From NCBI GenBank assembly GCA_944327195.1, contig CALVGV010000014.1:1-55911 (forward strand): DNA of 55,911 bases, written 5' to 3'. Positions 164 to 32,048 of this stretch are shown one piece after another. The notes under the pieces were generated by a model. The model made no database searches and had not been told where the DNA came from. It worked only from the letters and a program-made list of their open reading frames with translations. Both the position numbers and the translations under genes were made by a program. This DNA is from an uncultured Limosilactobacillus sp. Lineage in GTDB: Bacteria; Bacillota; Bacilli; Lactobacillales; Lactobacillaceae. Every line of letters starts with the position of its first letter. Position 1 is the stretch's first letter.

Positions 164-1192
164 TTAAAAGAAGGCCTTGGCCGCGCCGGCGACCGCAAGC
201 ATGAGGACGGTCGAAGCCAAGCCGGCCGCCAGGAGGGCGTTCTTGCCGCGGGTGAAGAGGACGTTGAAGTTAACGTTCATTCCCAACGCCGCCATCGCCA
301 TCCCGAGCAGGAGGTAGGCCAGCTTCACCAGCCCTGGGACCAACGGGGCCAGGGGGTGGATAAAGGTGCCGGCCACGCTAGCCAGGATGAAGCCGAGCAT
401 GAACCAGGGCAGCGGCAGGGGCCGCTTTTCCCCGTCAACTGGCTGATCACCGTGGTGGCGCTGGTACCAGAGGCCGACGATGATCGCCGCCGGGGCCAGC
501 AGGAGGACCCGCGAGAGCTTGGTGATGATCGCCGCATCGAGGCTGGTGGCCCCGCCGGCACTGCCGGCCGCCACCGCGTGGGCGATTTCGTGGAGGCTCC
601 CCCCGCACAGCACCCCAAACTGGCTGGCCGTCAGGTGAAGGAGCGGTCGCAGGGCGATGTCGACCATCGTGAAGACCGTCCCGAGGATGGCGACGATCGC
701 CACCGCCACCACCTCGTCCTCCTGCTGGCGGAGCTGGCCGGCTGGTTCCCGGGCGGTGGTGACCTGGGTGGAGATTCCCATCACCGCGGCCGCCCCGCAG
801 ATCCCGGTCCCGCTGGCGGTCAGGATCGCCAGGTGGGGGTTAACCCCAAAGCGGCGGGCCAGCCAGTAGGTACCGGTGATCGTTAGGGTGACGATCACCA
901 CCGCCAGGCAAATCGTCTTGACCCCGGCGGCGGCCAGGGCCAGCAGGTTGAGCTTGAAGCCGAGCAAGATGATCCCGGCCCGCAGGAACTTGTTGGCGAT
1001 CAGGCCGATCCCGGGGCGGGCGTAGTCAACCGCCGGCCGGAACAATTGGCTTACCATCCCCAGCAGGAGGGCGAGCACCAGGGCGCCGATCACCTTCAGG
1101 TAGGGTAGGGCTGCCAGCCAGGAGCCGGCCAGCGAGCAGGCGAGGGTGAGGGCCGCCGCGGCGGCAAAGGGGGCGGTAAAAATCTTTTTCAT
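164..1192 (-). CDS. YeiH family putative sulfate/anion exporter
   Basis: Polytopic inner-membrane protein of the YeiH/UPF0324 family, 342 residues, the usual family length. About ten hydrophobic segments span the protein. The family-typical GTGICGAAAVMG stretch lies mid-protein, and a SLHEIAHAVAAG stretch follows. The longer open frame to 1315 was rejected. ATG at 1192 has GGGAGGAAG at good spacing and starts the charged-then-hydrophobic N terminus (MKKIF). The gene diverges from a LysR regulator, the arrangement seen for yeiE-yeiH in enterobacteria, so local control by that regulator is likely. Substrate is not shown by the sequence; sulfur-anion export is the family assumption. Confidence 0.85.
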   Translation of the reverse strand: MKKIFTAPFAAAAALTLACSLAGSWLAALPYLKVIGALVLALLLGMVSQLFRPAVDYARPGIGLIANKFLRAGIILLGFKLNLLALAAAGVKTICLAVVIVTLTITGTYWLARRFGVNPHLAILTASGTGICGAAAVMGISTQVTTAREPAGQLRQQEDEVVAVAIVAILGTVFTMVDIALRPLLHLTASQFGVLCGGSLHEIAHAVAAGSAGGATSLDAAIITKLSRVLLLAPAAIIVGLWYQRHHGDQPVDGEKRPLPLPWFMLGFILASVAGTFIHPLAPLVPGLVKLAYLLLGMAMAALGMNVNFNVLFTRGKNALLAAGLASTVLMLAVAGAAKAFF

Positions 1193-1234
1193 TCGTGTCT
1201 TCCTCCCAGAACTTGTGATTTCTACAAAAGAAGA

Positions 1235-1248
1235 TATCATGGATGATA
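1235..1248. promoter_or_regulatory. Candidate LysR operator (TATCAT-GG-ATGATA)
   Basis: A perfect 6-2-6 inverted repeat sits in the 113-bp divergent region between the YeiH-type exporter and the LysR gene. Such dyads are typical binding sites of LysR activators controlling a divergent gene. Function is inferred. Confidence 0.4.
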
Positions 1249-1305
1249 GATAATGAAAAATTATGATTTCTTCGTTTACTATAAGCAAAAGTTTGGAGAA
1301 GAAAG

Positions 1306-2193
1306 ATGAACTCACTGCTCGACCGCCGGCTGGTCACCCTGATGGCGGTGGCCGAAACCGGCTCGATGACCGCCGCCGCCAACCGCCTCTACGTTACCCA
1401 GCCGGCCGTTTCCCAGCAGCTGGCCAGCCTCGGCAAGGACCTAGGATTGCCGCTATTGACCCACCGGGGGACCCGGGTTGAACTAACCCCGGTTGCCCGC
1501 GAGCTGGTCGCCTACGCCCGCCGCTTGACCCTCGACAATCGGGCCGTCCTGGCCCACCTGCAGACCGGACAGACGCCGCCCCTGCGCCTGGGGGTGACCG
1601 TTTCGCTGGGTAATTTCTTGCTGCCGCGCCTGCTGGCCGACCCAACGATCGCCGCCCGCGCGCTGGAAGTGACGATCGCCAACACCGCCACCCTGGCCGC
1701 CCAACTGCGGGCTGGCAAGTTGACGGCGGCCCTGGTGGAGGGCAACTTTCCGGCGGCCGACTTTGCCAGCCTTGACCTCGGCCTGGCGGACTTCATCGGG
1801 GTCGCTGCCCAGCCCCTTCCCGCGCTGACCTTGCCGGAGCTCTTTTCCCACTACCTCCTGGTCCGGGAACCGGGATCGGGAACGCGGGAAATCCTGACCA
1901 ACTGGCTGGCCGCCCACAACGCCGGGCTGGCGGACTTTTCGCGTACCCTGGCCCTTAACAGCCCGGCCGCGATCATCAATTTGCTGAAGGAGGGGGTCGG
2001 GATCAGCTTCATGTACCGGGCCCTGGTCGAGGAGGAGTTGACCACCGGCGACCTGCACCCGCTGCCCCTGGCCGGCTTCCCCCTCCGCCACCCGCTCAGC
2101 CTGATTTACCTCCGGGGGAGTAGCTTCGCTGACGAGCTCGTCCCGCTGGCCGAAGTGGCCCGCCGGGTACTAAAGGAGCTGGCGACCAAATGA
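1306..2193 (+). CDS. LysR family transcriptional regulator
   Basis: A 295-residue LysR-type regulator. The N-terminal winged helix-turn-helix spans about residues 8-62 and includes the helix read as YVTQPAVSQQLASL. A periplasmic-binding-fold effector domain follows from about residue 90. ATG at 1306 is preceded by a GGAGAAG ribosome-binding site. Its closest functional parallels by context are CysL/YeiE regulators, which control adjacent divergent transport genes. Effector unknown. Confidence 0.9.
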   Translation: MNSLLDRRLVTLMAVAETGSMTAAANRLYVTQPAVSQQLASLGKDLGLPLLTHRGTRVELTPVARELVAYARRLTLDNRAVLAHLQTGQTPPLRLGVTVSLGNFLLPRLLADPTIAARALEVTIANTATLAAQLRAGKLTAALVEGNFPAADFASLDLGLADFIGVAAQPLPALTLPELFSHYLLVREPGSGTREILTNWLAAHNAGLADFSRTLALNSPAAIINLLKEGVGISFMYRALVEEELTTGDLHPLPLAGFPLRHPLSLIYLRGSSFADELVPLAEVARRVLKELATK

Positions 2194-2195
2194 AA

Positions 2196-2238
2196 AAACG
2201 CCCGGCGCCCCGGGATTTTCCGGGGAGCGCCGGGCGTT
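2196..2238 (+). terminator. Terminator after the LysR gene
   Basis: A long GC-rich stem (AAACGCCCGGCG... with ...CGCCGGGCGTTT) closes three bases past the stop. It is near-symmetric and could work in both directions. Confidence 0.8.
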
Positions 2239-2296
2239 TGCTAGTTAGTGGGTATTACTTGGAGAAAAATGACAAACTTAATTTAAGCGGGGTGGC

Positions 2297-2524
2297 TCAA
2301 ACAATTAGCATCGCCTGCCGGTAGTAGTCCTGGGCCTCGGCGGTGGATAGGGCAAAGTCATCCACCAGGCGGGTAACGATTTGGGCTTCGGTTTTGCCCG
2401 CCCGGTCCAGCTGAATCACTTCGCGGGTGATTTCAATGCCCTGTGATCTTCCCTGACTCACTCCCTGAGCGTGTTCCTCCTGCAAGGCCCACTCCTGATC
2501 CTGGCGGTTAAAGTCAATTCGCAT
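2297..2524 (-). CDS. Stand-alone duplicate of the Rpn C-terminal domain (RpnS-like)
   Basis: A 75-residue protein almost identical to the last 83 residues of the Rpn protein encoded just upstream (2582-3520). It starts with MRIDFNRQDQEW and ends with QAMLIV. Differences lie mainly in the number of SQG-type repeats. ATG at 2524 is the homologue of an internal ATG of the large gene and keeps a GAATGGAGA ribosome-binding site 12 bases upstream. The duplicated segment includes about 57 nt ahead of the start, where a frameshifted remnant of upstream coding sequence can be read. By analogy with intragenic RpnS proteins of Enterobacteria, it could neutralise the large protein. That role is inference. 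Confidence 0.7.
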   Translation of the reverse strand: MRIDFNRQDQEWALQEEHAQGVSQGRSQGIEITREVIQLDRAGKTEAQIVTRLVDDFALSTAEAQDYYRQAMLIV

Positions 2525-2581
2525 AAATAAATTTCTCCATTCTACGTTCCTGCCGTTGCCGCATTTCAGGATTGCTGGCGG

Positions 2582-2833
2582 CTAAACGATCAGCATCGCC
2601 TGCCGGTAGTAGTCCTGGGCCTCGGCGGTGGACAGAGAAAAGTCATCCACCAGGTGGGCAACGATTTGGGCTTCGGTTTTGCCCGTCCGGTCCAGCTGGA
2701 TCACTTCGCGGGTGATTTCAATGCCCTGGGCTCTTCCCCGACTCATTCCTTGGCTTATCCCCTGGCTCATTCCCTTGGCATGTTCTTCTTGCAAGGCCCA
2801 CTCCTGGTCCTGGCGGTTAAAGTCAATTCGCAT
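2582..2833 (-). CDS. Predicted internal in-frame product of Rpn copy 1 (RpnS-like)
   Basis: Within the Rpn gene the codons for WRKIF M read TGGAGGAAGATTTTCATG, placing GGAGG nine bases ahead of an in-frame ATG at 2833. Initiation there would give an 83-residue C-terminal protein. The downstream gene at 2297-2524 begins at exactly the homologous codon, which supports this as a real start. In-gene small products acting as antitoxins have been described for the Rpn family. Confidence 0.55.
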   Translation of the reverse strand: MRIDFNRQDQEWALQEEHAKGMSQGISQGMSRGRAQGIEITREVIQLDRTGKTEAQIVAHLVDDFSLSTAEAQDYYRQAMLIV

Positions 2834-3520
2834 GAAAATCTTCCTCCATTCTGAATTCTTCTTCGCGCGGTCTTGTCGTTGCTTCAATTTTAGGATAAGC
2901 GGATCGGCCGAATCAACCGAAGCCACCTCGCCGGTGCGGATGAAGCGGCAGAGGCGTCGCAGGGGCAAGGGGGTATCTTCCTGGTCGGCGGTAATGTCGA
3001 GGAAGGTGAGGTTGAGCAGGGGCGGGGTGCTGAGGTCGCGCCTGTGCGGTCGCTTGGTCGAGAGCACCCGGTAGGTGTCGTACTGGCAGTGGTGGCCGAG
3101 CGGGTCGAAGTTGGTCAAAAAGATCACGTGGACCGACCGGAGCTTCTGGTAGTGGTCGCCCTCTTCCAGCTGATCCTCGACGATCGAGGCGAAGTAGGCC
3201 AGCGAGCGCGGGGCCAGGTTGTGGTAGTTGAGGACCTGCATCTCGATGTTGAACTCGCGCCGCCGGTCGTCAACGGCGAGAATGTCCAACCGAAAGCCAC
3301 GGCCGTCTTTGCTATGCTTGAGGTTGAATTCCCCGTTGACGCGGACCAGCCGGGTGATTTCTTCTTCCGGCAGGAGCCGGCGGAGGGTCGGGAGGAGGAC
3401 CGTCTTGTCCTTCATCACCCGGTTGAAGAGAAAGTCGTTGCTGAGGGTGGCGCGCCGCCAGTTTTCGGCCGCGCGGCGGCGCCGGGTCGCCTTGTTCGGG
3501 CGCTTGTGCTTGGTGGTCAT
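2582..3520 (-). CDS. Rpn family PD-(D/E)XK nuclease / putative transposase, copy 1
   Basis: A 312-residue protein of the Rpn/YhgA-like PD-(D/E)XK family (recombination-promoting nuclease, often annotated as transposase). The basic N terminus is followed by the nuclease core: the acidic residue in FRLDILAVDD and the ExQ pair in NIEMQVLNYH. The region around residues 115-165 holds the LRSVHVIFLTNFD strand typical of the family. The C terminus (from about residue 230) is a separable helical domain with SQG repeats. AAAGGAG precedes ATG at 3520. An internal ATG at 2833 has its own strong ribosome-binding site. DNA cleavage is known for family members; a role in phage defence has been reported for the family. 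Confidence 0.85.
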   Translation of the reverse strand: MTTKHKRPNKATRRRRAAENWRRATLSNDFLFNRVMKDKTVLLPTLRRLLPEEEITRLVRVNGEFNLKHSKDGRGFRLDILAVDDRRREFNIEMQVLNYHNLAPRSLAYFASIVEDQLEEGDHYQKLRSVHVIFLTNFDPLGHHCQYDTYRVLSTKRPHRRDLSTPPLLNLTFLDITADQEDTPLPLRRLCRFIRTGEVASVDSADPLILKLKQRQDRAKKNSEWRKIFMRIDFNRQDQEWALQEEHAKGMSQGISQGMSRGRAQGIEITREVIQLDRTGKTEAQIVAHLVDDFSLSTAEAQDYYRQAMLIV

Positions 3521-3627
3521 TGAAGTCGTACTCCTTTCGGGGGAGGATAAGAAAATTCCCCCCTACTTGATATATACGTCAATTGGCCAAAATTTACCCT
3601 AATTAATTTAAAAATATTTGAAATGGG

Positions 3628-5358
3628 CTAGCCGCGGTGGCGCCAGCGGCGGACCAGGTTGCTGATCACCAGGCCGATGATGACCACCACGGCGACCAGG
3701 TAGCCGGCCACCCCCAGCCAGTAGATCGGCGGGTGGTCGTGGCCGGTCGCCACCAGGATGGCCGAGGCCAGGATCACCGCTGCTAGGATGATCACCGTCA
3801 GTAGGCGGTTGAGCATTCGCTCCAGCTGGGCCAGCACCTTGTCCTGGCCGCGGTAGTGGAGGTTGAGCCGCTGCTCGCCGTTGGTCAGCTGGTCGAGGAA
3901 GGTTGCCGCCTTGACCGGCAGCTTCAGCAGCGACTGGCCGGCCTTGTAGGCCTGGAGCCCCTGGTTTTGCAGGCTGTGCTTGAGGTTGAAGTGCTCCTTG
4001 AGCCACTTGCGGGCGAAGGGGAGGGCCACGTCCATCATCGACAGGGTCGGGTAGAGCTTGGTCACCGTCCCCTCCAGGGTGGCGAAGGCCCGCAGGAGCA
4101 TCGTGACCTCCGGCTTGACCTGGAGGTGGTTCTCCCGGCAGAGGCGGGTGATTTCAAAGATCAGCTGGGGAAAGTCGAGGTCGGTCAGGCCGGTCTTGAG
4201 GTAGGGCCGCAAGAAGGCCGCCAGTTCGTGGTTGAAGGCCTGCTCGTCGACCGGGCCGGTCTGGTTGCAGATCGCCAGGATTGCCTGGCTGAGCTGGTAG
4301 TTGTCCTTGGCGGCGATCGCCAGGATCACCTGGGCAATCCCGTCGGCCAGCGGCTCGGAGAGGGTGCCCATCATGCCGAAGTCGAGGTAGACCAGCCGGT
4401 AGGGCGGCCGCGGCTTGCTGGTGGTCACCGCCACCGTGGCCGGGCCGACCTGGGCCTGCTTGCTTTCGACCTCGCCGGCTTCCCCGGCCGGGGCCGGGAA
4501 GAAGAGGAGGTTGCCCGGGTGGGGGTCGGCGTGGAAGAAATGGTCGTCAAAGACCTGCTGGATGAAGTTTTGTACCAGGTCGGTGGCCACCTGCTGACGG
4601 AGGGTGGCCAGATCACATTCGGCCGGCAGGGCCACCGTCGGCGGGGTGGTCAACAGGCCCTTGATCGACTGGCCGGCCATCGCCTCAGTCACCAGCACCC
4701 GGCTGGCGCAGTGGTCCTGGTAGACTTGCGGGGCCAGAAAGGGACCGCGGCCGTTGTTGAGGCGGTAGAACTTTTCCCCGAAGGCGGCCTCCTGGCGGGT
4801 GTCGATCTCGGTTTTCAGGGCAGCACTCAGCTGGTTGACCACCTCGGGGAGGTCGACCACGCTGTCGGTCGGCACGTACTTGAGTAGGGCCACCGCCCGC
4901 GAGAAGAGGTTGAGGTCGACCTCGACCAGCTGGCGGACGGCCGGGTGCTGAACCTTGACCACCACCTTGGTGCCGTCCTTGAGGTGGGCGTAGTGGCACT
5001 GGCCGATCGAGGCCGAGGCGAAGGGCGTTTCTTCAAAGTCGGCGAAGGCCTCAGAAATCGTTTGGCCGGTGGCCTCCTCAAAGGTGGCGGCGATGGTGGC
5101 GAAGTCGTCGCTGGCCACCCGGTCCTGGAGCTTGGTCAGCGCCTTGATGTAGGCCGGCGACACCAGGTCGGGCCGGGTGGAGAGGAGTTGGCCGAGCTTG
5201 ATGAAGGTCGGGCCGAGCTCCTCGAAGGCGGCCACCACCTCCTCGGGGTGGGTCTGGTGGTGAAAGTTGGCGATGAAGGAGTGCTTGCGCAGGACGGCGA
5301 TGATCTGGCGTAGGCGCTTGCTGGCGGTCAGTGATTCGGGTGGGGCGGTTTCGGGCAT
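3628..5358 (-). CDS. ABC1/AarF (UbiB-like) atypical kinase
   Basis: A 576-residue protein of the ABC1/UbiB family. Visible are the SIGQCHYAHL loop that replaces the usual glycine-rich loop, the ATP-binding lysine in VVVKVQHP, the catalytic-loop motif FFHADPHPGNL and the metal-binding YLDFGMMG. Two transmembrane helices close the C terminus (about residues 515-570), as in membrane-anchored family members. The start was set at ATG 5358, after GAAAGGAAG, instead of the longer frame to 5487. Members handle isoprenoid or quinone lipids; the substrate here is unknown. An unusual mid-protein insert (about residues 300-335, rich in E, A and P) precedes the DFG region. A promoter with an extended -10 (TGCTACAAT, 5389-5397) lies just upstream. 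Confidence 0.85.
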   Translation of the reverse strand: MPETAPPESLTASKRLRQIIAVLRKHSFIANFHHQTHPEEVVAAFEELGPTFIKLGQLLSTRPDLVSPAYIKALTKLQDRVASDDFATIAATFEEATGQTISEAFADFEETPFASASIGQCHYAHLKDGTKVVVKVQHPAVRQLVEVDLNLFSRAVALLKYVPTDSVVDLPEVVNQLSAALKTEIDTRQEAAFGEKFYRLNNGRGPFLAPQVYQDHCASRVLVTEAMAGQSIKGLLTTPPTVALPAECDLATLRQQVATDLVQNFIQQVFDDHFFHADPHPGNLLFFPAPAGEAGEVESKQAQVGPATVAVTTSKPRPPYRLVYLDFGMMGTLSEPLADGIAQVILAIAAKDNYQLSQAILAICNQTGPVDEQAFNHELAAFLRPYLKTGLTDLDFPQLIFEITRLCRENHLQVKPEVTMLLRAFATLEGTVTKLYPTLSMMDVALPFARKWLKEHFNLKHSLQNQGLQAYKAGQSLLKLPVKAATFLDQLTNGEQRLNLHYRGQDKVLAQLERMLNRLLTVIILAAVILASAILVATGHDHPPIYWLGVAGYLVAVVVIIGLVISNLVRRWRHRG

Positions 5359-5388
5359 CGGGAGCGCTTCCTTTCGAGGGTTTTCTCC

Positions 5389-5397
5389 ATTGTAGCA
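5389..5397 (-). promoter_or_regulatory. Extended -10 promoter element for the AarF gene
   Basis: TGCTACAAT on the minus strand, about 30 bases before the start codon. The -35 region is poor, as usual for extended -10 promoters. Confidence 0.45.
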
Positions 5398-5514
5398 CGG
5401 GCGGCGAATTTCTTTGGGCGGACCGTTGCTTTTTGCCGGCCGGGGGCGGATACTAGACGGGGTTCCCGCTGGGGGGCGGGGGCCCAAGTTTCTAGTTTGA
5501 GGAGGAGTTTAAAA

Positions 5515-6090
5515 TTGAAGAAAGCACTAATGATGACGGCGGTGGTCCTGCTGGGTGCCGGCCTTACCGGTTGTGGCAGCCACCAGTCAAGCCAAAAGTC
5601 AACCGCCACCAGCAGCGCCAAGGCAACGAGTTCCCACTCGAGCAGCCACAAGCGTAGCGCTAAGAGCAGCGCCAAGAAGACGAGCGCAGCGGCCAAGACC
5701 ACGAGTGAGTCCAGCGCCAGCGCGGCCAGCTCCAGTGCTGCCTCGGCAGCGTCTTCGTCGTCGGCTTCGAGCGACAGCAGTAGCCAGGCGAGCGCAAGCA
5801 GCAGCAGTAGTAGCCAGGGCCGGGTGATCAAGAACGCCACCGACGCTAGGCGACTGGCCGCCCATGCGGACGGGGCTCCGGGCCTAGGCGAAGACCCGAA
5901 CGGCCCCTACCAGGTAACCGAGGTTGATGGCGGCTACCGGGTGGTCCGGACTGACTACAACAGCGAACCCGAGATCGTTCACTACGACGGGTCGATTACC
6001 TATTCCGACGGCGAGACCCTCCCGTACTCCCAGGTTTCGGCACCACTGAACGACAGCCTTGCCGATAACGTCTACACCCCGAGCGAATAG
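5515..6090 (+). CDS. Ser/Ala-rich secreted lipoprotein of unknown function (1 of 3)
   Basis: A 191-residue predicted lipoprotein. The signal peptide ends in the lipobox LTGC (Cys about residue 21). It is followed by a low-complexity Ser/Ala/Thr/Lys linker of about 90 residues and then a C-terminal region with GPYQVTEVDGGYRVVRTDY and a DGSITYSDGE turn. The start is TTG at 5515, nine bases after a perfect AGGAGG (5500-5505); the longer frame would begin ahead of that site. Two more proteins in this window share the design (34677 and 47674) but not the C-terminal sequence. Cell-wall spanning by the linker is inferred. Confidence 0.75.
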   Translation: MKKALMMTAVVLLGAGLTGCGSHQSSQKSTATSSAKATSSHSSSHKRSAKSSAKKTSAAAKTTSESSASAASSSAASAASSSSASSDSSSQASASSSSSSQGRVIKNATDARRLAAHADGAPGLGEDPNGPYQVTEVDGGYRVVRTDYNSEPEIVHYDGSITYSDGETLPYSQVSAPLNDSLADNVYTPSE

Positions 6091-6123
6091 GAATCGCTCC
6101 AGGATTGAACCACAGTAAAGAAC

Positions 6124-6163
6124 AAGCCCGCTTCCCGGTGGATCAACTCGGGAAGCGGGCTTT
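6124..6163. terminator. Bidirectional terminator between lipoprotein and amidase
   Basis: AAGCCCGCTTCCCG pairs with CGGGAAGCGGGCTT. The flanks suit convergent genes ending at 6090 and 6183. Confidence 0.8.
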
Positions 6164-6182
6164 CTTGCTTCGGTGGGGAAGT

Positions 6183-7652
6183 CTAATTTTGGTGCAGAAA
6201 CCTAAACTTGCCGGCCTCCTCAAACAGCTTGGCCACCTGGAGGAGCTTGGCCTCCTGGCCCTTACCGGCGACAAACTGGATCCCCAGCGGCAGGCCCTCG
6301 TCGCTAACGAAGGTCGGCAGGGAGATCGCCGGCTCGCCGGTCAGGTTGGCCTGCTGGGTGAAGGGTGACTTGGTCAGGGCCGCTAGCCACTGGTCCCAGA
6401 TAAACCGTTGCTGCTCGGCTGGCGCCAGGTCGGTGATGTGGGCCATCGTCTCTAGCTCGGCCGGGGTGTTGAGCGGCTGGTCGATCCGCGGGGCGGTGGT
6501 GGCCGTCGTCGGCGTCAGCAGCAGGTCGTATTGCTCGTGGAAGGCGGCCATCTGGGCGCCAGCCGCGTCCCAGGCCGAGAGCGCCCGGCTGTACTGGCTG
6601 GCGGTCACGTGGCGGCCGGTCTGGTAGAGGGCCCAGGTCAGCGGCTCCATATCCTTTTGGGTAACCGGGCGACCGATGACGGCGGCAATCTGGTCGAACA
6701 TCGCTGCCGTTTCGCCCTCGTTCATCAGGTAGTAGGTTTCCATCAGGTCCTTGCCGGCGGTTGGCCACTGGACCTCCTCGACTTGCCAGCCCTGGTCGGC
6801 CAGGAAGGCGGCGGCCTCCTCGACCGCCTGCTTGGCCGCCGGACTGACCGGGGTGCCGACTGGCGACTCGGTCAGGTAGCCGACCCGCAGTTGCGGGTGC
6901 TCTGCCAAGGCGGCCACGAAGCTCTCTTCCAGCGGCACCTGGAAGACCGCCGCCGGCTGGAGGGCCTGGAGGGCGTCGAGCAGGAGGGCGGTGTCGGTCA
7001 CGTCGCGGGTGATAGCGAAGCTACCGGCCGCCCCCTGCCAGGAGCGCCAGTCGTCCGGGCCGGTGACCACCCGGCCACGGGTTGGCTTGAGGCCGATCGT
7101 TCCGGTCCAGGAGGCGGGGATGCGGATCGAGCCGCCGCCGTCGCTGGCCCCGGCCACCGGCAGGATTCCGGCCGCCACCGCCGCCCCGGCCCCGCCGGAG
7201 GAGCCGCCCGGGTAGTAGTCGGTGTTCCACGGGTTGTGGGCCGGGCCGTAGAGCTTGGCGTCGGTGACGTTCTTGAAGCCGAACTCGGGGAAGTTGGTCT
7301 GGCCGATCACCAAGAAGCCGGCCGCCTCCAGGGCCTTAGTGAAGTTGCTCGACTGCTTGGCGACGCTCTTGGCGAAGAGGACGTTGCCGTTGGTGGCTGG
7401 CAGGCCGGCCTTGGCCTGGCCGAGACCCTTTAGGAGCAGGGGAACGCCGAGGAAGGGCTGGCCGGTATCGACCTGGTGGGCGGCCTCTTTTTCGGCGGCG
7501 GCCCGCCGCTCGCTGATGACGGCGTTTAGGGCCGGATTCTGGGCGGCAATCTGGTCGAAGGCGGCCGCGATCAGTTCCTGGGGCGACAGCTGGTGGGTGC
7601 GGACCAGGCGGGCCAGCTGGTAGGCCGGGGTAAGCATTAGGTTTTCGGGCAT
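6183..7652 (-). CDS. Amidase signature family hydrolase
   Basis: A 489-residue amidase with the Ser-cisSer-Lys triad. Lys75 lies in LLLKGL, cis-Ser lies in the glycine-rich signature GGSSGGAGAAVAAG (about residues 149-162), and the nucleophile is Ser175 in DGGGSIRIPA. Length suits the AmiC/GatA-like single-enzyme amidases. No gatB or gatC is adjacent, so it is not the transamidosome subunit; it more likely hydrolyses free or peptide-like amides. AAGGAGG precedes ATG at 7652. An imperfect cre-like box (7707-7720) overlaps the upstream region. Confidence 0.88.
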   Translation of the reverse strand: MPENLMLTPAYQLARLVRTHQLSPQELIAAAFDQIAAQNPALNAVISERRAAAEKEAAHQVDTGQPFLGVPLLLKGLGQAKAGLPATNGNVLFAKSVAKQSSNFTKALEAAGFLVIGQTNFPEFGFKNVTDAKLYGPAHNPWNTDYYPGGSSGGAGAAVAAGILPVAGASDGGGSIRIPASWTGTIGLKPTRGRVVTGPDDWRSWQGAAGSFAITRDVTDTALLLDALQALQPAAVFQVPLEESFVAALAEHPQLRVGYLTESPVGTPVSPAAKQAVEEAAAFLADQGWQVEEVQWPTAGKDLMETYYLMNEGETAAMFDQIAAVIGRPVTQKDMEPLTWALYQTGRHVTASQYSRALSAWDAAGAQMAAFHEQYDLLLTPTTATTAPRIDQPLNTPAELETMAHITDLAPAEQQRFIWDQWLAALTKSPFTQQANLTGEPAISLPTFVSDEGLPLGIQFVAGKGQEAKLLQVAKLFEEAGKFRFLHQN

Positions 7653-11737: not shown

Positions 11738-13138
11738 ATGCAAGCGAAATCTCATCCCCGGGGCTGGACGGCGGAAGCCAACTGGCCACGGGTCATCAAG
11801 TGGTTGCTGGTCATCATGGTCGCCTACGCCCTGATCGGCAACTTCCTAGTCAACCACCCCTTCGCCTTCTACACGGCGCGCGGGACCAGCCTCAACTATT
11901 CGCGGATCTTCTTCATGCACGGCCTGATGGTCGGTTTCGCCGGCCTCACCGGGCTGACGGTCAGCCAGGCCTTCGGGGTCCGCAGTAACCTCAAGCGCTG
12001 GACCTTCTACCTGACGATCGCCGCCGTCTTGATCGGGGTCACCGGCGGGGCGATCAACCGCTCGATGGTCCACAAGATCACCCTCTGGTACCAGATCCTG
12101 AGCATGTTTGCCCTCGACGTAATCTTCATCTTGCTCGTCATCGGCCTCTGGCTGGCGGGGCGGGGACACCGGCGCACCAAGGCCGAGTGGATTGGCCTCT
12201 TGGCGGCCGGGTCGGCCCTGATTGCCGGGCTCTTCGGTGACCTGGTCGGCTTCATCTTGGACTTCGGCGGTTGGCCGGGGATCCAGGTCTGGTACGCCCA
12301 CAAGGTCGGTTACACCCTGGCCGAGTGGCAGGACGCCCTTTTGCGGACCCACTCCGACATGATGGTCGTTTCGGTCTTGACCCTGCTGATCGCGGTGGCC
12401 AACTACAGCTACGGCCGCCAGTTGACCGGCTGGGCCAAGCGGGTGCGGACGATCGGCGAGTGGTTCCTGCTGGCCGGGATCGTCTGCACCCTGGCGATCT
12501 ACCTGGTTGCCGGTCTCGGCGGCTCCCACCTGCAGATTCCCCACATCTTCACCGAACGCGGCTTCTTCCGCCCGCGCGGCCAGAGCGTGGCCGGGATTGA
12601 CCTCGGTGACTTCGTGATCGGGGCCCTGACCTTCGTCGGTGCCCTGCTGACCAGCGGGGCGGCTGCCTTTGGTCGGCACGAACCGGGCCAGGAGCTGAGC
12701 CGCCGTGCCCGGGTAACCGCCCGCGGGATCTTCACCACGATGGTCTGCATCTACCTGGCGGTGGGCGGCCTCGGCTTCCTGGAGGAGTACCGGGCCGACC
12801 TTTACAACTCGGACGTGGCAACGACGCCGTTGGGCGACTACGGCTTCATCTTCCGCCTCTTGCACGTCGACGTCTGCCTGCTGCTCTTCCCGGCGCTGAT
12901 GCTGGTGATGCTGCTGGCAAGCCGCAGTCTGGCGGTAAAGCAGGTGGAGCGTCTCCAGCTGATCTTACGGCTGGGGATCGTCCTGACCTTCATCGGCGCT
13001 TTGATCTTCATGGTGGTAAACTACCACACCTTCGGCCCGGGAAGCTGGGTCCTGGCCCTGGGGATCGTGATCGTGCTGGTGGGGATTCTCTACTACCTCT
13101 TCATGGTTGACCGGGACGAGGCGCGAGAACAAAAGTAA
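11738..13138 (+). CDS. Polytopic membrane protein with conserved-looking His residues, unknown function
   Basis: A 466-residue protein with about 12 hydrophobic segments. Several segments carry histidines in helix-like contexts: FFMHGLMVGFAGL, LLRTHSDMMVVSV, LGGSHLQIPH and LLHVDVCLLLFPAL. Such spaced His in membrane helices recall heme-copper oxidase or nitric-oxide reductase subunit I folds, but I see no clear copper-site or proton-channel signature, so the link is speculative. GGGAGG precedes ATG at 11738; the longer frame to 11684 has no site. The MarR gene just upstream suggests induction by a small molecule or stress. Confidence 0.55.
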   Translation: MQAKSHPRGWTAEANWPRVIKWLLVIMVAYALIGNFLVNHPFAFYTARGTSLNYSRIFFMHGLMVGFAGLTGLTVSQAFGVRSNLKRWTFYLTIAAVLIGVTGGAINRSMVHKITLWYQILSMFALDVIFILLVIGLWLAGRGHRRTKAEWIGLLAAGSALIAGLFGDLVGFILDFGGWPGIQVWYAHKVGYTLAEWQDALLRTHSDMMVVSVLTLLIAVANYSYGRQLTGWAKRVRTIGEWFLLAGIVCTLAIYLVAGLGGSHLQIPHIFTERGFFRPRGQSVAGIDLGDFVIGALTFVGALLTSGAAAFGRHEPGQELSRRARVTARGIFTTMVCIYLAVGGLGFLEEYRADLYNSDVATTPLGDYGFIFRLLHVDVCLLLFPALMLVMLLASRSLAVKQVERLQLILRLGIVLTFIGALIFMVVNYHTFGPGSWVLALGIVIVLVGILYYLFMVDRDEAREQK

Positions 13139-13142
13139 ATGA

Positions 13143-13182
13143 AAAACAGGTAAGCACTTTGCGAGGTGCTTACCTGTTTTTA
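13143..13182 (+). terminator. Terminator after the membrane protein gene
   Basis: AAAACAGGTAAGCAC pairs with GTGCTTACCTGTTTT, followed by T. Confidence 0.85.
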
Positions 13183-13195
13183 CATTGGGCGGTGC

Positions 13196-13353
13196 GGGGG
13201 CCTCCGCTCCGCGAAGTGGGCGGGACCGTGACGATGGTGGGCACGATTCTGAGCCCCTTCGGGTCTCAGAACTCGGCCTTTCACTAGGCGGGAAACCCGC
13301 CAAGTGAAATTTCACCATCTTGGCCCGCCCATTCGCTCCGCTCCGGCCCCGGC
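13196..13353 (+). repeat. Structured dispersed repeat, copy 1
   Basis: A ~155-nt element folds as a long closing stem with two arms. Closing stem: GCGAAgTGGGCGGG (13211-13224) with CCCGCCCATTCGC (13324-13336), then GATGGTG (13233-13239) with CACCATC (13313-13319). Arm 1: TTCTGAG / CTCAGAA (13247-13271). Arm 2: CACTaGGCGGG / CCCGCCaAGTG (13282-13306). Conserved joins are GGGCAC before arm 1 and CTCGGCCTT between the arms. Three other copies in the window keep the fold with different stems. Confidence 0.75.
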
Positions 13354-13756
13354 GTCAGTTTGCAACGGTGGCAACAGCTTGTGGTTGGGCATCAATCCAC
13401 TATTAGTGTGATCCTGCCGAATTCCATCATCTCGATTTGGCTACTAACCGAAGGGATGGCAACGTCAGTCTACTAGGGAAAAGGGAAAGCGAGCTAGTTT
13501 CCCTTTTAGTTTGTGGTTGGTCAAGGTAGAAAATACATCCTTGCTGCTAGGGCCAGGGAAAGATTAAGTGAGATGGGTGGTGGACGAAGGGGAGAGGCTG
13601 GTACTTGCAGAATAGTGGAGTCAGTAATGCGTAAAGCTGGAACGGAGCCGCTGTTTCGAAGGCAACATTGATTACAGATTACAGTTGCCTAGGTTAGCCA
13701 GTTAAATAGCTACTGAAAGCCGCCATCAACCAAAGAGAACCGGCTAGCTGCAGGGG
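13354..13756. other. Gene-free spacer between two inverted repeat copies
   Basis: About 400 bp without a credible coding frame or ribosome-binding site. It is visibly less GC-rich than the neighbouring genes. It holds one strong symmetric hairpin, AAAAGGGAAA (13478-13487) with TTTCCCTTTT (13499-13508), which could be a terminator. I see no other recognisable feature. Confidence 0.5.
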
Positions 13757-13947
13757 TACCACCCGGAGCGGAGCGAAAACACCCCTCAGCCGGGGAATTC
13801 CCTTAGCGGTTTACCGCTTAGGGAAGGCCGAGTTTTGAGACCACGCGGAGCGGGGGCTCAAAATCGCTTGCCCCCAGCGTTCCAGGGGTGCTTTTCGCGG
13901 AGCGGAGTGCCCACCATCGTCACGGCCCGCAATTTTCGCGGAGCGGA
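13757..13947 (-). repeat. Structured dispersed repeat, copy 2 (inverted, mosaic)
   Basis: Minus-strand copy. Closing stem: GCGAAAA(G)CACCCCT pairs AGGGGTGTTTTCGC (13773-13786 with 13884-13898). Arm 1: TTTTGAG / CTCAAAA (13833-13863). Arm 2: stem at 13799-13824. CTCGGCCTT joins the arms. Beyond its 5' side (13908-13947) lies an extra 5' half of the copy 1/copy 4 type (CCGTGACGATGGTGGGCAC on the minus strand), so this copy looks like one element next to part of another. Confidence 0.7.
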
Positions 13948-13954
13948 GCAAACT

Positions 13955-13983
13955 AAAAAGGCACCGCAATCAGCGGCACCTTT
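13955..13983 (-). terminator. Terminator of nrdF
   Basis: AAGGTGCCGC-TGATT-GCGGTGCCTTTTT on the minus strand, just past the nrdF stop. Confidence 0.85.
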
Positions 13984-13987
13984 CGAA

Positions 13988-14989
13988 TTAATCCTTGGCA
14001 TTGATGTCCTTGCCGGCGTTCGGGTCGGCAACGTGGTAGTCGCGGTCGTTCATCGCTTCGACCGCCCCGAGCCGGTAGCCGTTCCCAACCTGGCTGAAGA
14101 AGTCGTGGTTGGAAGTGGTGGTCGAGATCCCGTTCATGACAACCGGGTTGACGTCCTCGTCGGTGTCCGGGAAGAGCGGGTCTTGGCCGAGGTTCATCAG
14201 CGCCTTGTTGGCGTTGTAGCGGATGAATGTCAAGACGTCGTCGGTCCAGCCCACTTGGTCGTAGAGCAGGTGGGTGTACTTCTCTTCGTTGTCGTAGAGT
14301 TCGTAGAGGAAGGAGTACATCCAGTCCTTAATGTCTTGCTGGCGCTTTTCGGACAGCTGACGCATCCCCACCTGGAACTTGTAGCCGATGTAGGTCCCGT
14401 GAACCGATTCGTCCCGCAAGATCAGCTTGATGATTTCGGCAACGTTGTTGAGCTTGTTGTGGCCGAGGTAGTAGAGCGGGGTGTAGAAGCCGGAGTAGAA
14501 GAGGAAGGTTTCAAGGAAGACGTTGCAGATCTTCTTCTTCAGCGGGTCCTCGTTCGGGTCGAGGTACATGTTGCCGATCTTAACCGCCTTGTTTTGCAGG
14601 TATTCCTCGGTGTCGGACCAGTGGAAGATTTCCTCGATTTCGTCCGGCGTGTTCAGGGTCGAGAAGATGGTGGAGTAGGACTTGGCGTGAACCGATTCCA
14701 TGAACTGGATGTTGTTTAGGACCGCCGTTTCGTGCGGCGTCTTGACGTCCTGCTTGAGGGCGGTCAAGCCGGCCTCGGATTGCAGGGTGTCCAGCAGGGT
14801 CAGCCCGCCGAAGACGTGGCCAACCACCCAGCGGTGATCGTCGTCGAGTTCGCGCCAGTCGTCCATGTCGTTGGAAACCGGGATCCGGGTGTCGAGCCAG
14901 AATTGTTCGGTTAGCTTCTCCCAGGTTGCCTTGTCAATCATGTCGGAAACCTGATTCCAGTTGATCGCATCGTAGTTTTTAATTGCCAT
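13988..14989 (-). CDS. nrdF: Class Ib ribonucleotide reductase, beta subunit
   Basis: A 333-residue radical-bearing small subunit that reduces ribonucleoside diphosphates together with NrdE. Diiron/dimanganese ligands are visible in ESVHAKSYS (Glu and His) and DESVHGTYIGYK. The first carboxylate lies near DDWRELDDDHRW. Length is normal for NrdF. Start is ATG 14989 after TAGGAG. The gene is separated from nrdE by 200 bp with its own extended -10 promoter and a GC-rich leader, so it can be expressed separately from nrdHE. No nrdI is visible in the window. Confidence 0.95.
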   Translation of the reverse strand: MAIKNYDAINWNQVSDMIDKATWEKLTEQFWLDTRIPVSNDMDDWRELDDDHRWVVGHVFGGLTLLDTLQSEAGLTALKQDVKTPHETAVLNNIQFMESVHAKSYSTIFSTLNTPDEIEEIFHWSDTEEYLQNKAVKIGNMYLDPNEDPLKKKICNVFLETFLFYSGFYTPLYYLGHNKLNNVAEIIKLILRDESVHGTYIGYKFQVGMRQLSEKRQQDIKDWMYSFLYELYDNEEKYTHLLYDQVGWTDDVLTFIRYNANKALMNLGQDPLFPDTDEDVNPVVMNGISTTTSNHDFFSQVGNGYRLGAVEAMNDRDYHVADPNAGKDINAKD

Positions 14990-25653: not shown

Positions 25654-26032
25654 GCTCCGCAACGTTGGTGGGGGCCTCCGGGGAGTAGCTTCCGGGAGAC
25701 TGGAACGGGGTGGGCACAACTTTGAGCCTCCAAGGAGTCTCAAAGCTTGGCCTTGTTCTAAGCGATAAATCGCTAAGAACAATTTCACCCCTGAGCTCCC
25801 GGGTCTACTCCCCTCCGGCGGTGGTACCACTGCTACTGAACGACTCTTTTCGCTTGGTGGCAACTTGTTTCCCTTGAGAGAACAAGCATCGCTGAAAAAC
25901 TAGGTATGACTCCGCTCCGGGTGGTACCCCTGTAGCTAAAAGGTTCTCTTCGGTGGAAGACGACGAACGGATCCTCGCCATCGCCCTAAGTCTTCTTCCG
26001 GGCTTGGTTGTAAGAATGGACATTGAATTGAG
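25654..26032. other. Gene-free stretch holding repeat copy 3 and a related flank
   Basis: No credible gene. It includes the structured repeat at 25668-25824. A ~40-nt segment at 25909-25950 reads CTCCGCTCCGGGTGGTACC onward and matches, in reverse complement, the flank of copy 2 at 13729-13772. A second looser version (GGTGGTACCACTGCTACTGA) lies at 25819-25840. Confidence 0.5.
25668..25824 (+). repeat. Structured dispersed repeat, copy 3
   Basis: Closing stem: CCGGGGAGTAG (25678-25688) with CTACTCCCCTCCGG (25805-25818), CCGGGAG (25692-25698) with CTCCCGG (25796-25802), and GGGGTG (25707-25712) with CACCCC (25786-25791). Arm 1: TTTGAGcCTCC-AA-GGAGtCTCAAA. Arm 2: a 12-bp stem at 25754-25782 with ATAAAT loop. 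GGGCACAA and GCTTGGCCTT are the conserved joins. Stem bases differ from copies 1 and 4 but pairing is kept. Confidence 0.75.
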
Positions 26033-26070
26033 AAAACCCGCAAGCCGACTTTACATTGGCTTGCGGGTTT
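26033..26070. terminator. Strong symmetric terminator
   Basis: AAAACCCGCAAGCC pairs with GGCTTGCGGGTTTT. It isolates the TetR locus from the thioesterase side. Confidence 0.8.
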
Positions 26071-26165
26071 TCACCTTGTCAGGGGCTGCCCCTGGAATGG
26101 GCTAGTTAAAGTGAACTATAATTCTGGTAAGAAGATTAGTTAACCAATTGGTGGGGGACGAGACG

Positions 26166-26749
26166 ATGAAAATCACTGGCTACGAAGACCTACGGGTTCA
26201 ACGGACGATCAAGAGCATTTACGATGCCTTTAGCGAACTGATCCTGGAACGCGACTACGAGAAGATCACGGTCACCGAGCTGGCCAAGCGGGCGATGATC
26301 AACAAGAAGACCTTCTACCGCTACTACCCAACCCTCGACGACCTCCTAGCCGAGCTCCAGGCCCGCTATTCCAGGAATACCTGCAGCTGATCCAGGAACA
26401 ACAGCTGCAGTATCCGCGTGACCTGGCCAAGAGCCTCCAGCTCTTCTTCGAATTTTCGGCCAAGCAGGGGCCGGTCTACGACAAGATCACGACTTACGGC
26501 TCCTACAGTGGGATCCGCCAGCAGATGATCAACACGGTGATGAATAAGACCTGGGCGACCTCGGCCGCCTTTCAGCAGATGGCGCCCTTCAAGCAGCAAC
26601 TGCTACTGAACTTCATCGAACAGACCGGCCTGGCAATTTACGTCCAGTGGGTGAAGGCCGGTAGGAAGGAAGAACTAGCGACGGTGATTGCCTACGCCAG
26701 GGCCCTGATGGAGGGTGGGGTCAAGCAGTTCTTGGAATTAGACGAATAA
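26166..26749 (+). pseudogene. TetR/AcrR family regulator, frameshifted
   Basis: The N-terminal HTH (KITVTELAKRAMINKKTFYRYY, split here as positions 26274-26330) is intact, from ATG 26166 behind GGGGGACGAG. Near 26367 one base appears lost: frame 1 runs YSRNTCS-stop, while the next frame continues with QEYLQLIQEQQ and the full C-terminal domain to QFLELDE at 26749. Restoring one base would give a ~194-residue regulator. It could be a recent inactivation or a sequencing error. A TATAAT lies at 26117-26122. Neighbouring oxidoreductase and efflux genes are plausible targets. Confidence 0.75.
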
Positions 26750-26756
26750 GACGGCA

Positions 26757-26799
26757 AAGGCTCCCCGCGGATGATGACTTTCGCGGGGAGCCCTTTTTT
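26757..26799 (+). terminator. Terminator after the TetR locus
   Basis: GGCTCCCCGCG pairs with CGCGGGGAGCC and is followed by six T. Confidence 0.85.
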
Positions 26800-26802
26800 G
26801 CC

Positions 26803-26943
26803 TCAATAATCAAATTTCATTTTACCAAGCAGATCCACTGTTTCGGGGGTCAGCAGCCCCGCAAAGTAACTGCGGCCCTGGTCGAGCTGAGCAATTTGTT
26901 GCATCTCGGTGGGGGCAATTCGATTGCCAGCGAGCCCAGTTTT
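26803..26943 (-). pseudogene. C-terminal remnant of an aldo/keto reductase
   Basis: An open frame of about 45 codons ends GLLTPETVDLLGKMKFDY and includes IAPTEMQQIAQLDQGRSYF. That piece lines up with LTPAEMAAIDALDKHQRYF near the C terminus of the intact aldo/keto reductase at 27580. It has no start codon and no ribosome-binding site and lies directly after the stop of the next gene. I read it as the tail of a deleted reductase gene. Confidence 0.55.
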
Positions 26944-26949
26944 TCCTCT

Positions 26950-27561
26950 CTAGTGGGCCTGGGGCCGGTTGATCCCGAGACTCTCCCGGCGGCCGAAGTC
27001 GGGGTCGTTAACCATTCGGGCGACCAGGTCCGCGATCGCGGCGCGGGAAACGTCGTGGCCGCCGAAGGGTTCCCCCTTCCTGGTCAGTTCGTAGCGGGGA
27101 TCGCCGTTGTCGAACCAGCCGGGGCGGATGATGGTGTAGTCGAGGTCGCTGGCCTCGATGAGGTCGGCCGCCTTCCGGTAGGGGCGCAGGATCCCGTTGT
27201 GGTAAGGGTCGGGTGATTCACCCAGCCAGGCGGGGATTTCCTGGTAGATCCCCATGGTGGTGATGAAGGCCAGCCGCTTCACCTGGGCGTGGTCCATCGC
27301 CACTACTAGGTGCTGAGCGTAGCGGTCCAGCTGCCCGGAAAGGGCGGCGAAGACGAAGTCGACCCCGACCAGGGTGGCCGTCAGTGCCTGGTCGTCGGTG
27401 ACGTCCAGCCGGATTGCCGCTTCCCGCGCCGGGTCGGTAACCGGGATGCGCCGGGGATGGCGGGACGCCAGCACCAGCTGGGCGGTCGTCTGTTGCAGGA
27501 GTTCGCGGGCCACCACCCGGCCAATTGAACCGGAGGCGCCGATGATTAATACCTTGGTCAT
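26950..27561 (-). CDS. NAD(P)-binding Rossmann oxidoreductase (NmrA/atypical SDR type)
   Basis: A 203-residue atypical short-chain dehydrogenase. The nucleotide-binding motif GASGSIGRV is at residues 8-16, followed by ASRHPRR, which could recognise NADPH. The start at ATG 27561 is nine bases after AAAGGA; a second ATG nine bases upstream would overlap that site. It is 18 bp downstream of the aldo/keto reductase and so probably co-transcribed. Substrate unknown. Confidence 0.85.
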   Translation of the reverse strand: MTKVLIIGASGSIGRVVARELLQQTTAQLVLASRHPRRIPVTDPAREAAIRLDVTDDQALTATLVGVDFVFAALSGQLDRYAQHLVVAMDHAQVKRLAFITTMGIYQEIPAWLGESPDPYHNGILRPYRKAADLIEASDLDYTIIRPGWFDNGDPRYELTRKGEPFGGHDVSRAAIADLVARMVNDPDFGRRESLGINRPQAH

Positions 27562-27579
27562 TGCAATCATTCCTTTCTC

Positions 27580-28437
27580 TTAGTCGGCCGGGCGGAAGTT
27601 GGCGAAGGCGGTCTCCTGCTCCGCCAGCGGCATCGTGAAGTAGCGCTGGTGCTTGTCGAGGGCGTCGATCGCCGCCATTTCCGCCGGGGTCAGTTTAAAG
27701 TCGAAGACGGCCAGGTTGTCCGCCATGTGCTGCGGGTTGGTGGTCTTCGGGAAGACGATGTGGCCCTTTTGCAGGTGCCAGCGGAGGATGATTTGGACGT
27801 TGCTCTTGTTGTACTTGGCCGCCAGTTGGGTGAAGACCGGTTCGGCGATTAGTTGGCGGTCACCGTGGCCGAGCGGGTACCAGGATTCCAGCCGGGTGCC
27901 ATAGGGGGCCAGCTTCTCCTTTAAGGCCTGTTGTTGGTAGTAGGGGTGGAGCTCAACCTGCATCACGGCCGGCTTGATTGTGGCCTGGGCCAGGACGGCG
28001 TCGAGGCGGGGGCCGTCAAAGTTGCTGAGGCCGATCGCGCGCACCTTGCCCGCCCTAACGGCCTCCTCCATCGCCTGCCAGGCGCCGAGGTAGTCGCCGA
28101 TTTGTTGGTGGAGGAGGAGCAGGTCGAGGTAGTCGGTCTGCAGGCGGGCCAGCATCTTATCGATTGCCTCCGGGGTGACGGTGCGGCCGTAGTCGCTCGG
28201 CCACAGCTTCGAGGTGATCCACACTTCCTCGCGGTCGAGGCCGCTGTGCTTGATCGCCTGGCCGACCCCGCGCTCGTTTTGGTAGGCGTGGGCGGTGTCG
28301 ATGTGGCGGTAGCCCAGCTTGAGGGCGGCGCTGACGGCCCGTTCGGTGGCGGCGTCGCCGTTGATCTGGTAGACGCCGAGGCCGACTTGGGGGATCTGAA
28401 GCTGGTTGTTGAGGGTGAGGTAGAGTTGTTCAGTCAT
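27580..28437 (-). CDS. Aldo/keto reductase
   Basis: A 285-residue TIM-barrel NADPH-dependent reductase. The catalytic tetrad is Asp47, Tyr52, Lys77 and His110 (DTAHAYQNE, ITSKLW, LLLLHQQ). KTTNPQHMADN near residue 250 binds the cofactor phosphate. Start is ATG 28437 after AAGGAG; the longer frame to 28479 was rejected. The promoter region shares a motif with that of the 30385 gene, suggesting common control with the efflux operon. Confidence 0.92.
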   Translation of the reverse strand: MTEQLYLTLNNQLQIPQVGLGVYQINGDAATERAVSAALKLGYRHIDTAHAYQNERGVGQAIKHSGLDREEVWITSKLWPSDYGRTVTPEAIDKMLARLQTDYLDLLLLHQQIGDYLGAWQAMEEAVRAGKVRAIGLSNFDGPRLDAVLAQATIKPAVMQVELHPYYQQQALKEKLAPYGTRLESWYPLGHGDRQLIAEPVFTQLAAKYNKSNVQIILRWHLQKGHIVFPKTTNPQHMADNLAVFDFKLTPAEMAAIDALDKHQRYFTMPLAEQETAFANFRPAD

Positions 28438-28460
28438 TTTTTTCTCCTTTGCTTTGCTTA

Positions 28461-28506
28461 ACTTGATTATCTCCGCCAAATGGCGCCGGGGAAATGGGCA
28501 ATCTTT
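28461..28506 (-). promoter_or_regulatory. Shared promoter/operator motif upstream of the aldo/keto reductase
   Basis: On the minus strand AAAGATTGCCCATTT, then 20 bp, then GATAATCAAGT. The same two blocks at the same distance lie at 30413-30458. The -35 is poor, which suits an activator. Confidence 0.5.
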
Positions 28507-28554
28507 TCGGGAAGGGACATAGGTAACGGAATTGGCAAAAGGGTGGCAGAACGA

Positions 28555-30009: not shown

Positions 30010-30019
30010 TGGAACCTCC

Positions 30020-30385
30020 TTAGTTCATGCTGGTTTTTGCCCCGGTGATCAGCCACTGGCCGCCGACCCGGGCGAGGGTGGTTTGGGTGGTTAGCGGCCA
30101 GCGGTTGCGAAAGCCATAAATCCGGGCGTCGAGCTCGCTCTTGAGGGTTACCGTGGCCTGGTCGGTGCCGACCCGGGCGTGGACGGCCCGTTCCCGGCTG
30201 GTGAAGTAGTGCAGCCTTCCTAGTTCCAGCTGGTGGAGCCACTCGTCGCGCGACTGGACGGCGCCGGTGAGGTGAACAAAGCGGGCCTGCAGGGAAATGA
30301 GTTGCCGAAGGGTCGCCAGGTCGCCAGCGATCATGCCGGCAACCTGCTGGCGGACGACGGTAATTACTGTTTCTTGATCAGTCAT
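30020..30385 (-). CDS. NTF2-like (SnoaL/DUF4440-type) small protein
   Basis: A 121-residue cone-fold protein with the layout of NTF2-like proteins: an N-terminal helix pair (QQVAGMIAGDLATLRQLI), FVHLTGAVQSRDEWLHQL, and a C-terminal sheet ending QWLITGAKTSM. GGAGGAAG precedes ATG 30385. It is the first gene before the MFS pump. A detoxifying isomerase or binding role is possible but not shown. Confidence 0.8.
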   Translation of the reverse strand: MTDQETVITVVRQQVAGMIAGDLATLRQLISLQARFVHLTGAVQSRDEWLHQLELGRLHYFTSRERAVHARVGTDQATVTLKSELDARIYGFRNRWPLTTQTTLARVGGQWLITGAKTSMN

Positions 30386-30412
30386 CAATTTGCTTCCTCC
30401 TTCTTATCGATG

Positions 30413-30458
30413 ACTTGATTATCGGCCCCCGGCTCCGGCAAAAAAATGGGCAGTCTTT
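30413..30458 (-). promoter_or_regulatory. Shared promoter/operator motif upstream of the NTF2-MFS operon
   Basis: AAAGACTGCCCATTT, 20 bp, GATAATCAAGT on the minus strand: the counterpart of 28461-28506. A third GATTGCCCATT lies at 30529-30539 on the other strand. Confidence 0.5.
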
Positions 30459-30528
30459 GCCAAACGGGGACTTATGCCCCGGCTTGGCGAAAAGCGGGGC
30501 AGAAAATCTTCCCGGCTCGGTAGGCGGG

Positions 30529-30593: not shown

Positions 30594-30637
30594 AGTTACA
30601 TAATGATCAAAGCACCACAGAAGCAAGGAGGATGAAC

Positions 30638-31981: not shown

Positions 31982-31995
31982 GGACCGCGCCCCCC

Positions 31996-32035: not shown

Positions 32036-32048
32036 GAAGGAATTTTTC

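Follow-up and report, generated by a model that had tools for sequence, protein, structure and literature searches.

A branched, dispersed repeat of Lactobacillaceae that looks more like a small mobile DNA element copied by a partner than a regulatory RNA

What is a strongly folded sequence, repeated four times between the genes of a lactobacillus, likely to be: a structured RNA, or a DNA element that spreads through the genome? The question arises from a contig of an uncultured Limosilactobacillus, of which we analysed a stretch of 55,911 nt (the window). A preliminary description, made from the letters of the window, had reported four copies of a repeat with conserved joins, two kinds of internal loop, a wholly different closing stem in the third copy and stem changes that preserve pairing. 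It had taken these for a sign of a selected RNA or DNA fold, which it did not recognise as a named RNA family or repeat, and had proposed a covariance-model search of the genome and its relatives for further copies and for significant covariation. All four copies are present at the positions it gave, both in the sequence and as covariance-model matches, and the joins, the loop subtypes (GTGACG/CTTG and TGGAACG/CTGAG) and the differing closing stem of the third copy are confirmed. Two extents had to be redrawn. Copy 2 (13757-13947, minus strand) is not a single unit: it consists of a complete module at about 13757-13907 and an extra 5' half at about 13908-13948. Copy 4 (54057-54343) is not an uninterrupted module, since a 120-nt element at 54112-54231 splits its arm 1. 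The features of the window are the following.

13196-13353, plus strand: module A, subtype 1 (loop GTGACG/CTTG), complete with outer stem, inner stem, arm 1 and arm 2; core 13220-13328, 105.4 bits.
13721-13773, minus strand: 3' tail of module B, common to 25910-25962.
About 13757-13907, minus strand: module B, complete, with the subtype-2 loop TGGAACG/CTGAG; core 13779-13891, 82.4 bits; ends placed by eye.
About 13908-13948, minus strand: 5' half of a further module, of subtype 1, immediately preceding module B; read from the sequence.
13196-13948: convergent pair formed by A (plus) and B (minus), on the basis of the neighbour-orientation counts.
25668-25824, plus strand: module C, subtype 2, with a different outer stem; core 25694-25801, 109.9 bits.
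25910-25962, plus strand: stray 3'-tail fragment, 85% complementary to 13721-13773 (inverted repeat I2).
54057-54343, plus strand: module D, subtype 1, interrupted in arm 1; core match 54207-54317, 43.1 bits.
54112-54231, plus strand: second element, 120 nt long, that splits arm 1 of module D; it is flanked by ACAACTT and TGAGCC and shows no target duplication.

Elsewhere in the window, two direct-repeat pairs (169 nt, 92%; 108 nt, 81%) at 2299-2752 and 2436-2852 lie at the end of the ORF 2582-3520, and a 159-nt direct repeat (50205-50605, 83% identical, spacing 242) lies at the end of the ORF 50442-51341.

The modules share one fold, made of an outer stem, an asymmetric internal loop, an inner stem and two arms; bulged bases are fixed in arm 1 and an A.A mismatch in arm 2. 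Their core runs in the order inner stem, GGGCA, arm 1 (ACTTTGAGCC ... GGTCTCAAAGCT), GGCCTT, arm 2, AATTTC, inner stem. A DNA search of the source genome (G000) with copy 1 gave 48 matches, and 38 stretches were fetched; in these, the internal loop between the inner and outer stem comes in two kinds. By eye, source-genome modules also mix parts, for example a subtype-2 loop with an arm 2 typical of subtype 1, and several of them carry in front an additional 5' half, like the one at 13908-13948, with a junction near GGTGGGC. When the 120-nt element is taken out of module D, the family consensus continues exactly across the junction. The folding z-score of copy 1 was -7.8 and -8.4 as DNA (top and bottom strand, respectively) and -8.1 as RNA; in each of the three tests, none of 200 shuffled sequences folded equally well.

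The proposed check for covariation gave a strong result, and the compensatory stem changes of the preliminary description are found well beyond the window. RNAalifold predicted 35 pairs in 39 source-genome copies, 17 of them with two-sided changes, and 38 pairs, 25 with two-sided changes, in a cross-genus alignment of 48 rows. This alignment, which is also the basis of the covariance model, combines 16 source-genome rows with 32 outside rows (35 extracted, 3 near-duplicates dropped); it was made by sequence, and the structure was derived from the same alignment. Pairing was found in 95.6% of its cells (shuffled mean 78.5) and two-sided changes in 308 cells (shuffled mean 91.3), with 20 one-sided cells, and the covariation score was 0.453 (shuffled mean 0.141); the pairing, the two-sided changes and the score were each reached by 0 of 500 shuffles. 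Sliding the partners by 1-3 columns gave a score of 0.099 or less. Of the five measures, one was unexceptional: further pair types numbered 56 against a shuffled mean of 53.3, and 87 of 500 shuffles reached this number. Because all 32 outside rows had been picked by an exact 18-base pattern, they agree over that stretch by construction, and the key counts were therefore redone on 59 distinct model matches that lack the pattern. In these rows, more than one Watson-Crick type occurs at 35 of the 38 pairs. The two bases of the arm 2 A.A are kept in 57/59 and 55/59 rows, the bulged T of arm 1 in 57/57, and the six TGGAAC loop bases in 47-55 of 55-58 rows, loop bases being mostly kept at 85-95%.

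The model search of the genome and its relatives produced many further copies. The source genome holds at least 80 in 1.79 Mb (150 of 793 candidates scored), and matches were found in at least 124 of 397 Lactobacillaceae genomes, representing 15 of 40 genera. Among 395 Lactobacillales genomes at least 25 matched, every one a member of the Lactobacillaceae. Since at most nine matches per genome were scored in the family and order surveys, these counts are lower bounds. In 100 kb drawn from ten contigs of the source genome, the model had no match. A degenerate 18-base pattern, searched in one genome per species, detected 71 stretches, by title 46 from Lactobacillaceae (Lacticaseibacillus, Levilactobacillus, Lactiplantibacillus, Schleiferilactobacillus, Lapidilactobacillus, Loigolactobacillus, Limosilactobacillus and uncultured Lactobacillus) and 25 from other groups; all 25 of the latter were searched with the model, which gave one match, at 21.8 bits. 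Congeners yielded little: one weak match among 49 other genomes by DNA search, and by model one other genome in the family sample, with at least two copies. The 80 modules are strongly clustered, all of them being held by 20 of the 52 source-genome contigs; contig C8 has 14 and C12 has 10, and C3, C7, C11, C13 and C15-C17 have none. A chimeric assembly as the source of this uneven spread was rejected, as module-bearing and module-free contigs were similar in composition in the 10-kb pieces compared (11 contigs), apart from one outlier (L306), which is a repeat array. That piece carries, at positions 775-7094 (G000, contig C12, about 25774-32093), some 17 copies of a 369-nt (123-codon) tandem repeat, probably one long repeat-rich protein gene.

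Where neighbouring modules lie on opposite strands, they face each other. In the source genome, neighbour pairs comprised 16 convergent, 0 divergent and 7 same-strand cases, and 32 of the 80 copies sit in convergent pairs; among modules less than 700 bp apart in the fetched loci, some of which were counted twice, the figures were 54, 0 and 12. The genes do not set this order, because convergent pairs occur both in tandem gaps (14 of the 21 pairs with both neighbours known) and in convergent gaps (7). Modules avoid divergent gaps: these accommodate 4 of 77 module clusters, compared with 35 of 132 among other gaps of at least 100 bp (Fisher P = 8e-5). Gene contexts in these counts came from a simple ORF caller, with 4 clusters that overlap predicted ORFs and 8 singles at stretch ends left out. 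Paired copies of the source genome were no better conserved than single ones as judged by model score (medians 102.1 and 100.9 bits, P = 0.67). In one genome (G126), modules form a tandem array with a period of 168 bp.

Comparison of copies points to amplification and turnover. Six of the seven copies fetched from one genome (G173) are near-identical. Four of the seven share blocks that continue through the convergent partner (418-461 nt at L159, L161 and L165, and two pieces at L160) and the other three share about 200 nt; the common blocks of copies in G238 and G201 also include the partner, and in other genomes entire pairs recur at further sites. Since the common blocks span the partner, the convergent pair would fit as the amplified unit, with larger duplications as another possibility. 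Between close species, the modules turn over. When the gaps of L. zeae (G325) were compared with orthologous gaps of close species, these held a module with other arms, an arm-less or inverted one, or none. Occupancy differs between the Lacticaseibacillus genomes G325 and G286, which are about 95% identical over the compared stretches, and one orthologous gap holds just the base of a module. At the eight Lacticaseibacillus gaps compared, whose flanks had diverged, neither a clean insertion of a module by itself, with ends that could be read, nor a target duplication was seen, and none of the plasmid boundaries examined was a module-only difference: of the candidates for an empty site, some are other IS insertions and one (L202 vs L278) is the insertion of an ISLre2 element itself. 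A second dispersed repeat of about 120 bp is present in Lacticaseibacillus (L279:15956-16078, and many places in G286 and G176; dozens of matches, some with a tandem spacing of about 123 bp), and a sequence similar to it fills a gap that in G286 holds a module.

The 120-nt element found in module D (TGCGAATG...GAACCGC) is itself structured. Seven copies were seen, all inside modules (module D, L044, L043, L025, L038, L030 and L036), a count that is biased because the loci had been picked for modules. The element occupies sites in arm 1, in the inner stem and in the internal loop. Across the junctions, the module consensus is exact in four of the seven copies and within one base in the other three, and target duplication was seen at none of the seven. 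No match to this element was found on plasmids.

Several candidates for a mover or carrier of the modules were examined and rejected. Nine of the 11 module-bearing genomes tested lack a gene for a Y1 transposase, which rules out this enzyme as the mover in those nine; the source genome has one such gene and one other carrier two. Seven congeners without a module match in the DNA search have between 1 and 27. On an L. brevis plasmid (NZ_CP033886.1, L202:2919-4642), an ISLre2-type IS contains a module between its left end and the transposase gene. Because 11 of 15 module carriers have no match to its transposase, the module there is probably a passenger, and ISLre2 was rejected as mover. A MITE of a DDE transposase would call for a target-site duplication and for an IS with the same ends in the genome, and ISLre2 was the sole IS tested as such a partner. 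A linked mover gene was likewise rejected: among 128 neighbouring proteins scanned, of 173 in a list without proteins over 600 residues, no Pfam family had more than three members. Phages as carriers were set aside, with no exact 18-mer match in viral contigs and no match to one module type in phage records. Plasmid records were matched by two module types (5 and 16 records) and not by two others.

Selection on an RNA would be expected to leave many G.U pairs, and few A.C, on the strand of that RNA. In 203 rows fitted to the model, each distinct within its own alignment and decayed copies included, the 7379 pair cells comprised 6919 Watson-Crick, 129 G.T, 156 A.C and 175 other combinations; the 59 pattern-free rows gave 2035 Watson-Crick, 36 G.T and 50 A.C in 2169 cells. 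For comparison, 30 small SRP RNA loci of Lactobacillaceae were fetched and 29 used, one being truncated at a contig end; these had 584 Watson-Crick, 115 G.U, 5 A.C and 19 other in 723 cells. The excess of G.U over A.C varies with the set of modules. It was 33 to 23 in the 1824 cells of the curated 48-row alignment, 21 to 23 once the column pair 14-119, which separates the subtypes, was removed, and 47:17 and 22:2 (sum 69:19) when the structures of the two halves of this alignment were predicted apart. G.U stayed below 4% in every module count, subset-specific structures giving 3-4%, against 16% in SRP RNA. The orientation of single modules between tandem genes is independent of transcription (20 sense, 17 antisense). 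From the low G.U in every count, with the orientation of the singles in support, we read the module pairing as kept mainly at the DNA level. The fold of the preliminary description stands together with its covariation, and the choice between RNA and DNA, which it had left open, leans to DNA. In an Rfam search of the window, no module match attained the gathering score, and the region 13100-14000 had only sub-threshold matches up to E 10; the absence of a match at gathering score rules out a named RNA family. Strong covariation here seems to reflect DNA and not RNA, which is relevant to RNA-discovery pipelines.

The near Watson-Crick-only pairing, the indifference to the direction of transcription, the amplification and turnover and the convergent pairs speak for a mobile-DNA-like repeat over an RNA gene or riboregulator, and the module resembles a small mobile element, one that a partner would copy, more than it does a regulatory RNA. 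In our estimate, the chances are about even that the modules are small, non-coding, dispersed DNA elements of the Lactobacillaceae that work like REP/REPIN sequences. The branched fold would form in single-stranded DNA, such as the lagging-strand template, where a recombinase or transposase encoded elsewhere might recognise it and copy the element into intergenic DNA. We infer this recognition of a single strand and mobility in trans, together with a native unit that would be the convergent pair; singles, half-copies and arm-less versions may be remnants or products of template switching. The eight gaps without a clean insertion, the lack of an enzyme linked to the modules, the equal conservation of paired and single copies, the absence of exact 18-mers from viral contigs and of one module type from phage records, and the small number of plasmid matches count against mobile DNA, as does the surplus of G.U over A.C in the curated alignment and in its two halves. 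A more specific version, possible but doubtful, is that a non-Y1 system that leaves no target duplication spreads branched single-stranded DNA folds in lactobacilli, through a fold-accepting host recombinase or an undescribed enzyme, and that the 120-nt element would be its second client. The Xer recombinase accepts folded single strands of some phage DNA.

The alternative that the modules are structured RNAs, be it a 3'UTR element, a terminator-like or processing signal or a genome-dispersed small RNA family, draws on the strong fold and its covariation, the intergenic position, a terminator-like hairpin seen by eye after some G173 copies and the surplus of G.U over A.C under subset-specific structures; moreover, BIMEs of E. 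coli are reported to act as bidirectional terminators (excerpts of PMC2965389). We nevertheless consider it unlikely in view of the low G.U in every count, the nearly equal numbers of sense and antisense singles, neighbouring genes that have no family in common and the Rfam result.

Three further alternatives place the modules in DNA. They could be chromosomal sites that serve the host, maintained by selection and dispersed through recombination, where a nucleoid, gyrase or repair protein binds a cruciform. Unpaired bases fixed across genera, the strong clustering on 20 of 52 contigs and the intergenic location would suit such sites, but 273 of the 397 family genomes have no match (with filters that lose weak matches), as do nearly all congeners, which argues that the modules are not generally needed. 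Occupancy also differs between close species, and we regard a host site as quite unlikely. Covariation would need no selection if quasipalindrome correction by template switching perfected the hairpins; the almost exclusively Watson-Crick pairs agree with this, as do the module reduced to its base and, by eye, the half-copies and chimeric modules joined near GGTGGGC. Such correction would, however, erase the A.A of arm 2 and the bulged T, both of which persist in the pattern-free rows, and it leaves the dispersal unexplained, so that we find it very unlikely. Finally, a strict REPIN identity, in which a Y1 transposase of the RAYT/IS200 type would mobilise the modules, appears highly improbable with the gene lacking in nine of the 11 carriers whereas the seven module-negative congeners have it, even though the doublets are inverted and two carriers, the source genome included, do possess Y1 genes. 

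Among known repeats, bcr1 of the Bacillus cereus group, about 155 bp long, resembles the modules by description in its intergenic position, its conserved fold and its presumed mobility, but belongs to a different host. BIME, BOX, RUP and ERIC are likewise small dispersed structured repeats. Lactobacilli, which are food and gut bacteria, have been sequenced heavily; even so, for a repeat found in at least 124 of 397 genomes of the family we found no description in the open-licence full-text literature, which lacks most subscription journals. In the available parts of PMC2267715, L. johnsonii is the only lactobacillus listed, and in those of PMC6006769 the string Lactobacill- does not occur. CGTC-tagged REPs, as described in excerpts of PMC3733652, seemingly have no dedicated transposase and form dimers. 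The modules share with them a palindromic character and the formation of dimers, and seem likewise to be without a dedicated transposase. REPs carry an unpaired tag at one end, GTAG or, in the other super-family, CGTC. As possible counterparts, CGTC stands near the 5' end of modules in G173, G237 and G238 and CGCC in others, and GTAG is present inside the outer stem of subtype 2. The tagged REPs differ in being single short hairpins, from Proteobacteria and four other phyla, and the words Firmicutes and Lactobacill- are absent from the available text of that paper.

REPINs are inverted doublets with compensatory changes that are regarded as the mobile unit (excerpts of PMC3116915). REPINs and REP doublets with RAYT, as described there, resemble the modules in being dispersed intergenic palindromes with inverted doublets and compensatory changes, with tandem clusters, singlets and no coding capacity. 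A REP, however, consists of one hairpin of 20-40 bp (excerpts of PMC3733652) and depends on a Y1 transposase, whereas the module is a branched fold of about 110-160 nt. REPINs are likewise tied to Y1/RAYT, the gene for which is absent from 9 of 11 module carriers tested and single in the source genome, and the REPIN model predicts better-conserved doublets, whereas module doublets equal singlets (P = 0.67). Because of their size, the missing enzyme in most carriers tested and doublets that are no better conserved, we do not file the modules as REPINs. They make up a REPIN-like population that is mostly without the supposedly required enzyme, and with it the question of what else moves folded DNA becomes testable.
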